This document shows positions 47,869 to 55,228 of a DNA stretch of 57,094 nt, piece after piece. The stretch spans positions 1 through 57,094 of the forward strand of contig JAIORS010000101.1 of the NCBI GenBank assembly GCA_021108005.1. The letters run 5' to 3'. Position numbers and translations under genes: made by a program. Within the stretch, counting starts at the first letter, position 1, and each line of letters begins with the position of its first letter. Origin of the DNA: Candidatus Aegiribacteria sp. Lineage in GTDB: Bacteria > Fermentibacterota > Fermentibacteria > Fermentibacterales > JCC-6. The notes beneath the pieces are model-generated. The model ran no database searches, was not told the origin of the DNA, and worked only from the letters and a program-made list of their open reading frames with translations.

Positions 47869-48255
47869 CTACGTCTTGGTGTAAGCCGGTTTCAAGCCTT
47901 CGAACATGGGGAAGTGTTTGATGTTCAACGTAATAAGATCAGCGCATTCAGCTTCTGCAGTGGCAGCAATGATAGCGTCAGCCAGTCCGATCCCGTGACT
48001 TCTGGTAAAGGCTTTTCTGTAAAGACCACCGTTTCGGGCAATTGCGGCGGATACAGGAACTACTCGGAACAGGGAAATGAAACTGTCCAGAGTGCCCAAT
48101 TCTTTATCACCCTTTACACCGGCGTAGAGTTCCGCAGTAACTATGCTGGACAGAATGATCCGGACGGAATGTGCATTTACGAGAGCAACGGCCTTCGGGT
48201 GACCCCTTAAAAAATCTACTATCACATCTGTATCAACCAGAACAGGGCCAGACAC
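47869..48255 (-). CDS. vapC: VapC-type PIN-domain toxin
   Basis: 128 aa, a PIN-domain endoribonuclease. The acidic active-site residues are present: VDTDVIVDFLRG, TAELYAG, GLADAIIAATA and the late LNIKHFPMF segment. Its start lies 3 nt after the antitoxin stop, the usual antitoxin-first order. It would cut RNA (often tRNA) when freed from the antitoxin. The surrounding decayed sequence suggests the module arrived as an accessory element. Confidence 0.92.
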   Translation of the reverse strand: MSGPVLVDTDVIVDFLRGHPKAVALVNAHSVRIILSSIVTAELYAGVKGDKELGTLDSFISLFRVVPVSAAIARNGGLYRKAFTRSHGIGLADAIIAATAEAECADLITLNIKHFPMFEGLKPAYTKT

Positions 48256-48258
48256 AGC

Positions 48259-48492
48259 TTAACTCCTGTCCCATGAAAGCCGTACTGAGCTGAAGTCAGG
48301 TAGATCCTTGCGATCTCGCCACATGCCAGCTGCTTTATTCAGAATTGAATCTCGGCGGCTTCCATTGGCCAAGTCTATATACATATCGACCGCATCACGG
48401 ATAAGCTCTGACTGCCTCTTGCCCGTTGCTTTGACAAGGGCGCTCAGTTTGTCACGCTCTTCTTCTGTAAGATAAATCTGTGTTCTCACCAT
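48259..48492 (-). CDS. vapB: Ribbon-helix-helix antitoxin (VapB-like)
   Basis: 77 aa. An N-terminal ribbon-helix-helix DNA-binding domain (VRTQIYLTEEERDKLSALVKATGKRQSELIRDAVDMYI) and a C-terminal tail for toxin binding (DLPDFSSVRLSWDRS). GGAGGT lies 5 nt upstream of the ATG. It is expected to repress its own promoter through the palindrome directly upstream and to neutralise VapC. Confidence 0.9.
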   Translation of the reverse strand: MVRTQIYLTEEERDKLSALVKATGKRQSELIRDAVDMYIDLANGSRRDSILNKAAGMWRDRKDLPDFSSVRLSWDRS

Positions 48493-52128: not shown

Positions 52129-52380
52129 TTACTTATTCCGCTGATTCCCGCTCCCAGAACCCTTTTCTCCTCTGCTTGTGAGGAATGCGAAAAGGGCTCC
52201 GATAAGACTGCTGATCCCTATTCCGGAAGGACATCCATTGCTGCCGCAGAACGGGCAAGGGGTTGTTGACGCAAGTAAACCGGTATAACCGAACCACCAG
52301 GCAGCGAAACGGACCACTCGTGATGAAAACGTTCGTTTTCCGCGGTTTTCTTCTGGAATTGAGTTGTTGTTTTGATCCAT
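52129..52380 (-). CDS. Small cysteine-motif membrane protein
   Basis: 83 aa from ATG 52380 (GGGGAG 8 nt upstream). A basic N-terminal half, a hydrophobic segment (AWWFGYTGLLASTTP), the motif CPFCGSNGCPSGIG and a second hydrophobic helix (SSLIGALFAFL) make a two-helix membrane protein with three cysteines between the helices, a plausible metal or redox site. It is last in the permease operon. I do not recognise the family. Confidence 0.6.
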   Translation of the reverse strand: MDQNNNSIPEENRGKRTFSSRVVRFAAWWFGYTGLLASTTPCPFCGSNGCPSGIGISSLIGALFAFLTSRGEKGSGSGNQRNK

Positions 52381-52419
52381 ATTCAAAGCTCCCCTTCTCA
52401 ATATGCAGCTATATATCAC

Positions 52420-53133
52420 TTATGGATACATATATGGACATTCCGGCGATTCTAAAACAGTGATTTCAAGGTCTTTAATAAATGGGAATACTTCTTCATT
52501 AATAATCAGAGTATCTGCTGTTCCTGTAACCCTCAGCCACTGATCATCGGGAATTCCTGTGACTGAACCTCCTTCAAGATAGATTCCGTAAGGAATCGCA
52601 TCATTAACACAGCAGACAATCAGGAAGCGAAACAGTACAGGCATATTTCCGGAAATGCTGTCCGTATTAATCAGCGAACCCTCAAGAGTGACTGTACGCT
52701 CGAAAGCACATCCGTAATCGGACAAAAGTGAGTAAAGGTCTGTATGCATGACCGTATTCTGTAATCCGGATGATCCGGGCTGCAATTCAATTCCGTCCAG
52801 GGATTCGACCATGGATATACTTCTTCTCGAATAAGCGTATGCACCAAGTTGATCCCCGGCACTGAAAACCAGATAAATCAGTGGAAAAAGAAGAATACCG
52901 GTATCAACCAGATCCGCTCTGCTCTCTTCTTCCTTTCTGAGGAGTACCGGAGATAGTACGAGAGAGGCAAGAAACAAGCCGGATAGAATCGCGCCGATAG
53001 CAATAATCGGCCATAGATGAATGGCTATATGCATTTTGTACCTTCCGTTAAGAAGCAACAGAACGAGCATTACCATCCAGGCGGTGTATACCAGCATTTT
53101 AAGAAGCGTTGGAATCGATTGTGGCTTCTTCAT
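52420..53133 (-). CDS. YcgQ-like permease partner (TIGR03943/DUF1980 family)
   Basis: 237 aa from ATG 53133, which overlaps the permease stop (ATGA). Two to three N-terminal membrane helices (LVYTAWMVMLVLLLLNG; HLWPIIAIGAILSGLFLASLVL; LLFPLIYLVFSAG) precede an extracytoplasmic domain ending in the conserved FRFLIVCCVNDAIPYGIYLEG and DDQWLRVTGTAD, the CC-and-W pattern of the family that always accompanies YraQ/YcgR-type permeases. Probably forms a complex with the permease. The transported substrate is unknown. Confidence 0.8.
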   Translation of the reverse strand: MKKPQSIPTLLKMLVYTAWMVMLVLLLLNGRYKMHIAIHLWPIIAIGAILSGLFLASLVLSPVLLRKEEESRADLVDTGILLFPLIYLVFSAGDQLGAYAYSRRSISMVESLDGIELQPGSSGLQNTVMHTDLYSLLSDYGCAFERTVTLEGSLINTDSISGNMPVLFRFLIVCCVNDAIPYGIYLEGGSVTGIPDDQWLRVTGTADTLIINEEVFPFIKDLEITVLESPECPYMYP

Positions 53134-54131
53134 GTGAATACCGGTCCCAGAACATGAAGCAGGTATGAAACGCATAGAACCACTGCAATCACGCTTATCG
53201 CGATTACAGGAATGGCCCTTTTCCGGAAGACGATTCTGTACATCAGCATAAGTTTGATGTCCAGCATTGGTCCAATAAGCATGAATGACATCTGTGAGGA
53301 TAATGGGAAAGCGTTCTTACCGAATGAGGCCGCCACGAAGGCATCTCCGTCAGAACATATACTGAGACATACAGCGAGGCCCATCATCATCAGGATTGAC
53401 ATGACAGGGCTCGCGATGACTCCCGAGATTATACTCCGGCTGACAATAGACTGAAGAAGCCCCGCCAGGAAAGCTCCCATAACAAGATATTTACCTGCAA
53501 TGACGAAATCCCCGGCAGCGGTTCGAATAACTCTGCTCCACCGGCTTCCGGATTCCCCACTGTCCATCAGATTGCATGTCTTTTGAGAAGTGATATCCTT
53601 TCTGATCAGCGAATCTCCCGCATACTTCTGTACTATTAGAGCCACGATAACAGCGATTGTATATCCCCCTATTATCCGCAAAGCCATGATCTTCCATGAG
53701 AACCTGTAAGCCACGAGAGTGGAGAGAGCAACAATTGGATTAATAGTAGGTCCCGCAAGCATATAAGCAATTGCCGCACCTGGAGATACCCCCTTCTTGA
53801 TCAGCCTGTATACAACAGTTACAACGGCACACTCACAAACGGGAACCGCGAAGCCGATCAAGCCACCCAGCAGTACTGATTTCAGACGTCCATCTTTCAA
53901 CGAATTCACCATTTTTTTCGGCATGTATTCCTCAATGATTCCGCCAACCAGTGAACCCAGCAGCATGAACGGGAAAGCTTCCAGAACAATGCCGGAAAAG
54001 CTGAGAAAGGCTGTATGGAAAGAGTCAACATCGCGCGTCAACAGCAGCATGAGCAGAGCAACAATCAGGAATGCAAGATACAACCTGTATTTCCTGTCCA
54101 CTTCAATGCAACCGTAAGCGGTATCATTCAA
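53130..54131 (-). CDS. YraQ/ArsP-like permease (DUF318/UPF0718)
   Basis: 333 aa from TTG 54131 (GGAGGT 8 nt upstream, overlapping the previous stop as TTGA). Eight or so helices in two halves, with the family motifs LGSLVGGIIEEYMPK, GFAVPVCECAVVTVVYRLIKKGVSPGAAIAYMLAGPTINPIV and, in the second half, CSDGDAFVAASFG and FMLIGPMLDIKLM. The CxC in PVCECAVV is conserved in the family. Some relatives (ArsP) export organoarsenicals; others are of unknown specificity. Confidence 0.87.
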   Translation of the reverse strand: MNDTAYGCIEVDRKYRLYLAFLIVALLMLLLTRDVDSFHTAFLSFSGIVLEAFPFMLLGSLVGGIIEEYMPKKMVNSLKDGRLKSVLLGGLIGFAVPVCECAVVTVVYRLIKKGVSPGAAIAYMLAGPTINPIVALSTLVAYRFSWKIMALRIIGGYTIAVIVALIVQKYAGDSLIRKDITSQKTCNLMDSGESGSRWSRVIRTAAGDFVIAGKYLVMGAFLAGLLQSIVSRSIISGVIASPVMSILMMMGLAVCLSICSDGDAFVAASFGKNAFPLSSQMSFMLIGPMLDIKLMLMYRIVFRKRAIPVIAISVIAVVLCVSYLLHVLGPVFT

Positions 54132-54508
54132 GACGATCCACCTCCCTTTTTCGGTCTGGTAATGAATACTACCACGAACGCTAGTCCCAGAAGCAGAAGT
54201 GAATCGCGAACCATCTTCCCCCATATGAAAGTTGCTGCCCAGGGCTGATTGAAGAACCAGGCTGTGGACATGTTCCGCTGCCCGGGAGCATGCATAGGTG
54301 ATCCTCTGTTTGCCGATGCTGATTCCGTCAGCGAATCGCTGATTTCCAATTCGCAGAAAAATCGAGTGTTGCGTAGTGATGGTTCTGCATCAATGCTGTC
54401 CCTGGAAAACAGATAGGAATCTTCAACTACTTCACTTATATCATAATCCTGGCAAGATAATGAAGTAATCATAGCAAATACCAGGATTAGTAATCCTGTT
54501 TTTCGCAA
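54128..54508 (-). CDS. Probable lipoprotein with C-terminal membrane helix, unknown
   Basis: 126 aa. A lipoprotein-like signal (LILVFAMITSLSC) is followed by an acidic region (YDISEVVEDSYLF; CELEISDSLTESA), then FFNQPWAATFIWGKMVRDSLLLLGLAFVVVF, a single membrane helix, and a basic GGG-rich tail. Its stop overlaps the TTG of the permease, indicating tight coupling. No family recognised; it may present a metal or ligand to the permease. Confidence 0.6.
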   Translation of the reverse strand: MRKTGLLILVFAMITSLSCQDYDISEVVEDSYLFSRDSIDAEPSLRNTRFFCELEISDSLTESASANRGSPMHAPGQRNMSTAWFFNQPWAATFIWGKMVRDSLLLLGLAFVVVFITRPKKGGGSS

Positions 54509-54588
54509 ACCGCCTCCTCATTGGTTTATTCGATTATCCGGATATGTGTTAACCGGGTAAGTCACCAACTGTTATGTCAGCTGATCAA

Positions 54589-54996
54589 TCAGGCATTTGT
54601 GAAAGGAGGGCTTCGTGAGCGTATGGTCAGTTCAGCAGGCTGAGGAGAGATATGTATGGTTTCCTGATGCGATGCATCGATGTCGAGTACTGTAAGACAG
54701 GGAACGCATTCATTAATATCCGCACACTGTGAATACATATGTCCACTGCAGAAAGCGCAGTGTTCGTGATTATGTCTCAGTGTGTCAGGGAAACTGAATA
54801 AAGACGTTGTCTGGATCGAACCAGAGCGTGACAGTTTCCGCTCAAGGTTGAAAGCCTCTATCGGGTTTTCGCGGGATGCTGTCTGTTTTAAATGAAGTAA
54901 TTGCATATGAGGGAGACCGGTAGGCCCCACTCCAAGAAATACAGCCAGGGCGAAGGATACACATAAGCGGATTAATGCTTCAGGAAAAGTACGCAT
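54589..54996 (-). CDS. Small exported Cys/His-rich protein (DUF2946-like)
   Basis: 135 aa with a hydrophobic signal segment (LIRLCVSFALAVFLGVG) and GGAG before the ATG. The central HNHEHCAFCSGH, QCADINECVPC cluster is a strong candidate metal-binding site, and the end RSRSPPF recalls the R-x-PP tail of DUF2946 proteins found with metal-handling genes. It is first in the run leading to the permease, 80 nt upstream of the next gene. The family assignment is tentative. Confidence 0.55.
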   Translation of the reverse strand: MRTFPEALIRLCVSFALAVFLGVGPTGLPHMQLLHLKQTASRENPIEAFNLERKLSRSGSIQTTSLFSFPDTLRHNHEHCAFCSGHMYSQCADINECVPCLTVLDIDASHQETIHISPQPAELTIRSRSPPFTNA

Positions 54997-55228
54997 TCGT
55001 TACTCCGTATCCGTTCTATTCACGTGATCGGAAGGTTTTCCCGGTTCCTGTTAAAAAAGCAATTCCTGATTCTTTCGTCTGGACAAACGATACAATAAAC
55101 TGAATACAATTTAATACATATGACTAAAGCGTCAACCGGTTCCAATATAGAGATTCAAATGTAATCAGACCCGCTACAGCAGTTCCGTTTATAGAATGGT
55201 TTAAAATGCATGGGGTGAGAAGAGTATC

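Follow-up and report, generated by a model that had tools for sequence, protein, structure and literature searches.

A conserved YcgR/YcgQ-type permease operon in Fermentibacterota with a putative metal-sensing arrest-peptide leader

The closest described parallels to the first gene of the locus analysed here (g1) are two leaders of metal operons. CruR of B. pertussis (BP2923) is a DUF2946 leader which responds to copper and acts through Rho-dependent termination (PMC9426467), while CutF of R. capsulatus responds to copper when a stem masking the ribosome-binding site of the following gene unfolds (PMC9973294). Like g1, both are small exported proteins with a CXXC or CxxxC motif and a C-terminal proline arrest-like motif, both are encoded by the first gene of their operon, and in both cases the intergenic RNA controls the gene that follows, as is predicted for g1 (PMC9426467; PMC9973294). 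Both characterised DUF2946 leaders are sensors of copper and not of zinc, and their products are reported as undetected in cells (PMC9426467; PMC9973294). Across DUF2946 proteins, the CXXC and RAPP motifs are spaced by 45 ± 1–2 residues (PMC9426467). Stalling of CruR or CutF has as yet not been demonstrated; RSPP and RAPP are both listed as arrest motifs (PMC10987492). A second group of leaders, comprising SecM, ApdA, ApdP and the RQH family, shares with g1 a short exported upstream ORF ending in R-[A/G/S]-P-P. Unlike g1, the described leaders of this group lie upstream of secA, secDF or yidC, monitor protein export and contain no metal motif (PMC10987492).

The third and fourth genes of the locus (g3 and g4) have described counterparts of their own. 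A PF03773 permease with a DUF1980/TIGR03943 partner, as in g3–g4, is found in YcgR/YcgQ of B. subtilis, ScfA/ScfB of S. pyogenes, SMU_746/747 and the BAS1632 operon of B. anthracis (PMC5584981; PMC6336718). In contrast to the present locus, these are described as two-gene units, without a leader or counterparts of g2 and g5.

Here, we analysed a stretch of 57,094 nt (the window), which is contained as one contig in a 3.2-Mb genome. Its phylum is Candidatus Fermentibacterota, as seen from named relatives (Aegiribacteria and Sabulitectum). We regard it as reasonably probable that its five-gene locus is a metal-responsive transport operon in which g1 is an arrest leader and g2–g5 form an inner-membrane assembly, leaning towards acquisition. 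This reading draws on gene content, conservation, motifs, exact spacing and protein families, all read from sequence, and on an OB fold predicted by modelling. We infer stalling, metal sensing, an RNA switch, the substrate and the direction of transport. In the proposed mechanism, g1 would not be a subunit but a leader that senses metal during its own synthesis. Metal on its CXXC would alter ribosome stalling at the R-S-P-P near the C-terminus. A ribosome halted there would melt an RNA stem hiding the ribosome-binding site of g2, and expression of g3 and g4 would follow that of g2 by translational coupling. In the assembly, the ArsP_1-type permease g3 and its usual partner g4, whose OB-fold domain would be extracytoplasmic and carries a Cys-Cys signature, would be joined by g2, as a borrowed lipoprotein/TM subunit, and by g5, a membrane protein with a Cys loop.

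Locus layout and the permease pair

The preliminary description had placed a five-gene membrane operon at 52129–54996, and five minus-strand ORFs are indeed found there, running from 54996 to 52129 in the order g1-g2-g3-g4-g5. The features are as follows:

55108..55135, minus strand: candidate sigma-70-type promoter upstream of g1 (TTGACG-16-TAAATT), weak and not above shuffle expectation
54589..54996, minus strand: g1, ATG start at 54996, 135 aa, proposed CruR/CutF-like arrest-peptide leader
54748..54759, minus strand: CAFC codons of g1, the proposed metal-sensing CXXC, invariant in four orthologues
54604..54615, minus strand: R-S-P-P codons of g1 (CGA AGC CCT CCT), the proposed ribosome-stall site and anti-Shine-Dalgarno strand, from arrest-motif likeness and RNA models
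54509..54588, minus strand: g1–g2 intergenic region, predicted to fold
54513..54519, minus strand: g2 Shine-Dalgarno sequence GAGGAGG, predicted to be paired and to be freed by a ribosome stalled on R-S-P-P
54128..54508, minus strand: g2, TTG start, 126-aa lipoprotein-like protein with a C-terminal TM helix
53130..54131, minus strand: g3, TTG start at 54131, ArsP_1 (PF03773) permease
52420..53133, minus strand: g4, ATG start at 53133, DUF1980_C/YcgQ-type partner
52129..52380, minus strand: g5, ATG start at 52380, 83-aa membrane protein

The operon is flanked by a phoU-like gene (55882–55229) and a histidine-kinase-like gene (51946–50597). Elsewhere in the window (47869–48492), a PIN-domain-like toxin and a ribbon-helix-helix-like antitoxin were judged by eye to be of the VapBC type. 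Start and stop overlap at the g2–g3 junction (TTGA) and the g3–g4 junction (ATGA), so the translational chaining claimed earlier holds for these two junctions and does not extend to g1–g2 and g4–g5, which are separated by 80 nt and 39 nt, respectively.

The window copies of g1, g2 and g5 gave no significant Pfam or NCBIfam match. The permease and its partner, previously called YraQ/ArsP-like and YcgQ-like, both have Pfam matches: g3 passes the cutoff of ArsP_1 (PF03773; 1.3e-55, 189.1 bits, cutoff 32.3) and g4 that of DUF1980_C (PF21537; 2.8e-16, 59.9 bits, cutoff 25.9). Compared with known YcgQ-type partners, g4 falls just under the cutoff of the TIGR03943 permease subunit (88.2 bits, cutoff 88.8). 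The SO_0444 Cu/Zn efflux family (NF033936) and SaoE (NF040736) belong to the same permease superfamily as g3, but g3 stays far under both cutoffs (77.3 bits against 300 and 82 bits against 325, respectively). It carries a CEC motif (C100-E101-C102) together with C260 and D264; C100-x-C102, C260 and D264 are kept across 19 pair-type relatives.

Searching solved structures by sequence returned no match for g3 or g4. The structure model of g3 reaches a pLDDT of 86 and a pTM of 0.85, and a fold search with it gave TRAP/elevator-type transporters as best matches, which are suggestive only (E 0.04, TM 0.41). For g4, the model predicts about three N-terminal helices and a C-terminal OB fold (strands 147–226, pLDDT mostly 59–87), and the signature RFL.VCC..DA.P lies in the OB-fold region. 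Weak DUF1980_C matches to AsnRS, a DNA-polymerase-III-like protein and others were treated as shared OB folds rather than as relatives of the system.

Candidate metals, regulation and direction of transport

Metal handling, already suggested as the theme of the locus, is borne out by the neighbours of the pair, by a domain fusion and by the type of leader, and g3–g4 is probably a metal transporter. In other genomes, the pair adjoins ZnuA/ZnuC-type genes (G269), ABC-3/ATPase genes (G367) or a COG0523 gene (G093), and in G371 DUF1980_C is fused to an ABC-3 permease. The latter is a single ORF (G371:C16, L165:505-1872), in which DUF1980_C forms the C-terminal domain of an ABC-3 (ZnuB-type) permease; genes of the ZnuA and ZnuC types and one for a small exported His/CXXC protein precede it. 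In B. anthracis, Zur binds upstream of the ArsP_1 permease gene BAS1632, and the authors inferred positive regulation (PMC6336718), which would fit efflux. To regard the substrate as wholly unknown is too strong: zinc is indicated by neighbours, fusion and published Zur binding, and either copper or zinc by the type of leader. The metal of the operon is probably one of these two.

An apparent Zur box of the phylum, TTATTGCAAANNNTTTGCAATAA, is located directly before zur-znuACB in G008, G025 and G029 (L202:4004-4026, L203:5088-5110 and L204:4955-4977). The genome of the window has a degenerate copy before znuA, where no Fur-type gene was seen. Upstream of the five-gene operon, where a search for metal-regulator sites had been proposed, the Zur box of the zur-znu operon had no convincing match in the four genomes with the operon, inverted repeats were lacking upstream of g1, and alignment of the four upstream regions revealed no informative shared motif. 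The missing box weakens the case for zinc; at the same time, it is expected if the leader regulates the operon.

With modest confidence, we favour uptake over efflux, with zinc or copper being acquired when scarce. A tenable but tentative alternative is a system for efflux or detoxification of copper, zinc or another soft metal, in which metal would cause stalling, as proposed for CutF, and thereby switch outward transport on. Efflux is the role described for characterised members of the ArsP_1 family (PF03773), which offer a precedent. CutF, moreover, is copper-induced, and its intergenic region is short and structured, as is that of g1–g2 (PMC9973294). However, the same genome contains two other, separate ArsP_1 genes beside ArsR-like regulators, one of which passes the SO_0444 Cu/Zn efflux model (304.3 against 300) that the window permease misses so widely, and efflux may therefore already be covered. 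The uptake genes among the neighbours of the pair elsewhere also argue against an outward direction.

The first gene and the g1–g2 junction

The g1 protein combines an N-terminal export signal, formed by a hydrophobic segment at residues 7–25, with a His-rich stretch containing the CXXC (H.H.HCAFC) and an R-S-P-P near the C-terminus. Its orthologues are 32–37% identical to the window copy, making g1 the most diverged of the five genes apart from its motifs. Despite their differing lengths, CAFC and R[A/S]PP are exactly 44 residues apart in all four orthologues; the C-terminal motif lies 4–6 residues from the end and reads RAPP in three of them and RSPP in the window. In each of the four genomes, g1 is the first gene of the operon. 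The DUF2946 reference loci show a CXXC–RAPP spacing of 42–47, and a scan of 3838 distinct ORFs of at least 60 aa from the loci collected for this analysis recovered the CXXC-spacer-RxPP architecture solely in the four g1 genes and in DUF2946 loci, of which there were 8.

The label ‘DUF2946-like’ given to g1 earlier was apt with regard to CXXC and C-terminal R[A/S]PP, which are the hallmarks of DUF2946 proteins, and to the 44-residue spacing. Against PF11162, the best g1 orthologue remains under the cutoff (18.7 bits, E 0.0032, cutoff 23.7), a second one matches more weakly, and the window copy does not match; profile comparison with DUF2946 gave a probability of 13% and aligned only the Cys/His segment. 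Accordingly, g1 is described here as working like CruR and CutF and is not filed as a DUF2946 member. It further differs from these two in its occurrence in Fermentibacterota, in the RSPP of the window copy and in the cargo of its operon, an ArsP_1/DUF1980_C pair with g2 and g5. As its anatomy is that of a CruR/CutF leader, which points to regulation and not transport, g1 is probably a metal-sensing arrest-peptide leader of this kind rather than a part of the machine.

A related arrangement occurs in G198:C1 (L216:452-3777), where a DUF2946-like leader ending in RAPP is followed by genes for a predicted exported protein, a ZnuA-type protein and an ABC-3 permease. The position of this leader before ZnuA/ABC-3 genes suggests that the leader class extends beyond copper.

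At the g1–g2 junction, the R-S-P-P codons of the window can pair with the GAGGAGG of g2. Stalling was modelled by placing the ribosome according to toeprints of RAPP peptides, with the third residue in the P site (PMC10987492). Upon stalling, the predicted unpaired probability of the g2 ribosome-binding site rises from 0.10 to 0.91 in the window, from 0.17 to 0.53 in G008, from 0.33 to 0.77 in G029 and from 0.09 to 0.81 in G025. The mean rise across these four orthologues, which are not independent as G029 and G025 are related, amounts to 0.58 (null mean 0.06, maximum 0.36 in 400 shuffle sets) and becomes smaller when longer flanks are folded. Among ordinary gene junctions used as control, 2 of 17 showed a rise of at least 0.39. 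The models lend moderate support to an RNA switch that would expose the ribosome-binding site of g2. A more specific version, in which g1 is a nascent-chain sensor of zinc and not copper, replaces Zur for a ZnuABC-independent zinc transporter and uses its Pro-Pro codons as anti-Shine-Dalgarno strand, appears rather doubtful.

Accessory genes and conservation across genomes

The g2 protein carries the motif SPMHAPGQRN..T.WFFNQPWAA..WGK..RDS. A search of 84,980 species genomes identified 35 relatives, all from Fermentibacteria, 32 of which are encoded in an operon with an ABC ATPase, an ABC-2 permease and a further membrane protein; only three belong to the permease operon. Both groups share the block WFF.QPWAA..WGK..RD. 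The ABC-operon relatives are His-rich, whereas g2 of the permease operon has lost these His residues and reads SPMHAPGQRN. Since the usual home of the family is the ABC-2 transporter operon, g2 is most simply read as a member of a phylum-specific lipoprotein family that was borrowed into the permease operon. The ABC operon itself is phylum-wide (L131:3817-6471 in G000:C144; L050–L081), and its His-rich g2-type lipoprotein was found only in Fermentibacterota. One weak match of the g2 search (L075) was considered as a further copy of the permease operon and rejected as being of the ABC type.

In g5, a Cys loop (CPFCG..GCP.G) is located next to or between hydrophobic stretches. The gene also occurs without the permease pair and adjoins znuACB in G298. 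Comparison with solved structures retrieved eukaryotic Elf1 zinc ribbons (E 0.09), a weak match that is not taken as meaningful. In G353:C23 (L147:789-2768), a g5-like membrane segment lies in frame with an apparent hybrid-cluster (hydroxylamine reductase-like) protein in a 659-aa ORF, which may represent either a genuine fusion or two genes read through as one.

The gene order g1-g2-g3-g4-g5 recurs in three more genomes (G008, G029 and G025), with protein identities of 35–62% across the four. Between G029 and G025, dN/dS values of 0.08–0.41 indicate purifying selection on all five genes, and the small ORFs are therefore real genes. Among 42 genomes of the phylum, DUF1980_C is present in four, g1 in the same four, g5 in nine and the g2 family in 39; thus all four intact pairs carry the three small genes, contrary to the possibility, raised earlier as a refutation, that these would be absent beside the pair in relatives. 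When the sample was widened to 385 genomes, g1 stayed confined to those four. DUF1980_C was found in 27 genomes, 21 of them with a score over the cutoff, and g5 was found in 14; outside the phylum, g5 and DUF1980_C occur in different genomes. As the pair occurs there without g1 or g5, the proposed unit of five stands within the phylum and not beyond it: the five-gene form belongs to Fermentibacterota, whereas in general the pair occurs by itself. No relatives of the permease were found on viral contigs.

Two genomes of the same genus, G004 and G017, contain wrecks of the operon, with a transposase-like remnant interrupting the permease gene and a shortened g4, and in G018 a g5 remnant adjoins a gene also found downstream of the operon in G008. 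These remains point to an older common operon. In the decayed copies, the remnant has replaced the 5' end of the permease gene (L034:4799-5878 in G017 and L035:535-1614 in G004), and a DtxR-type regulator and feo-like genes lie downstream. Taken with the shared order, the data support the five genes as a conserved unit built around a YcgR/YcgQ-type pair.

The preliminary description had suggested that the five products make up a complete metal-handling machine; in that case, g1 could be a periplasmic metal chaperone feeding the permease. An exported, Cys/His-rich g1 that is present in exactly those genomes of the phylum which have the pair would agree with this, yet the constant distance of its C-terminal R[A/S]PP from the CXXC and its 5'-most position match leaders, not chaperones, and neither its divergence outside the motifs nor the failure to detect the CruR and CutF products in cells (PMC9426467; PMC9973294) favours a chaperone. 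Given also the ABC-2 home of the g2 family and the occurrence of g5 without the pair, a single five-part complex seems quite unlikely. It is highly improbable that an ordinary YcgR/YcgQ-type pair has acquired the three small genes as neighbours merely by chance: the pair does stand alone elsewhere and g2 and g5 have other homes, but the diverged genomes keep the same order, starts and stops overlap, the genes are under purifying selection, and the remnants indicate an older operon.

With g1 as a leader and g2–g5 as an inner-membrane assembly, the operon is not a new class of system. It would add a phylum and a cargo to those in which CruR/CutF-type regulation has been described, and it offers a compact case in which the codons of an arrest motif themselves would hide the ribosome-binding site of the next gene. 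If the zinc reading were true, g1 would be a zinc-responsive arrest peptide, a kind not found described in the literature searched. Pairs of the YcgR/YcgQ type are widespread, and in their streptococcal form, ScfAB, they are of importance in S. pyogenes infection. The reading of g1 as a leader is the most useful result because it makes the substrate of the pair testable with a reporter: a metal that moves a leader-reporter fusion would be a strong substrate candidate for the pair.
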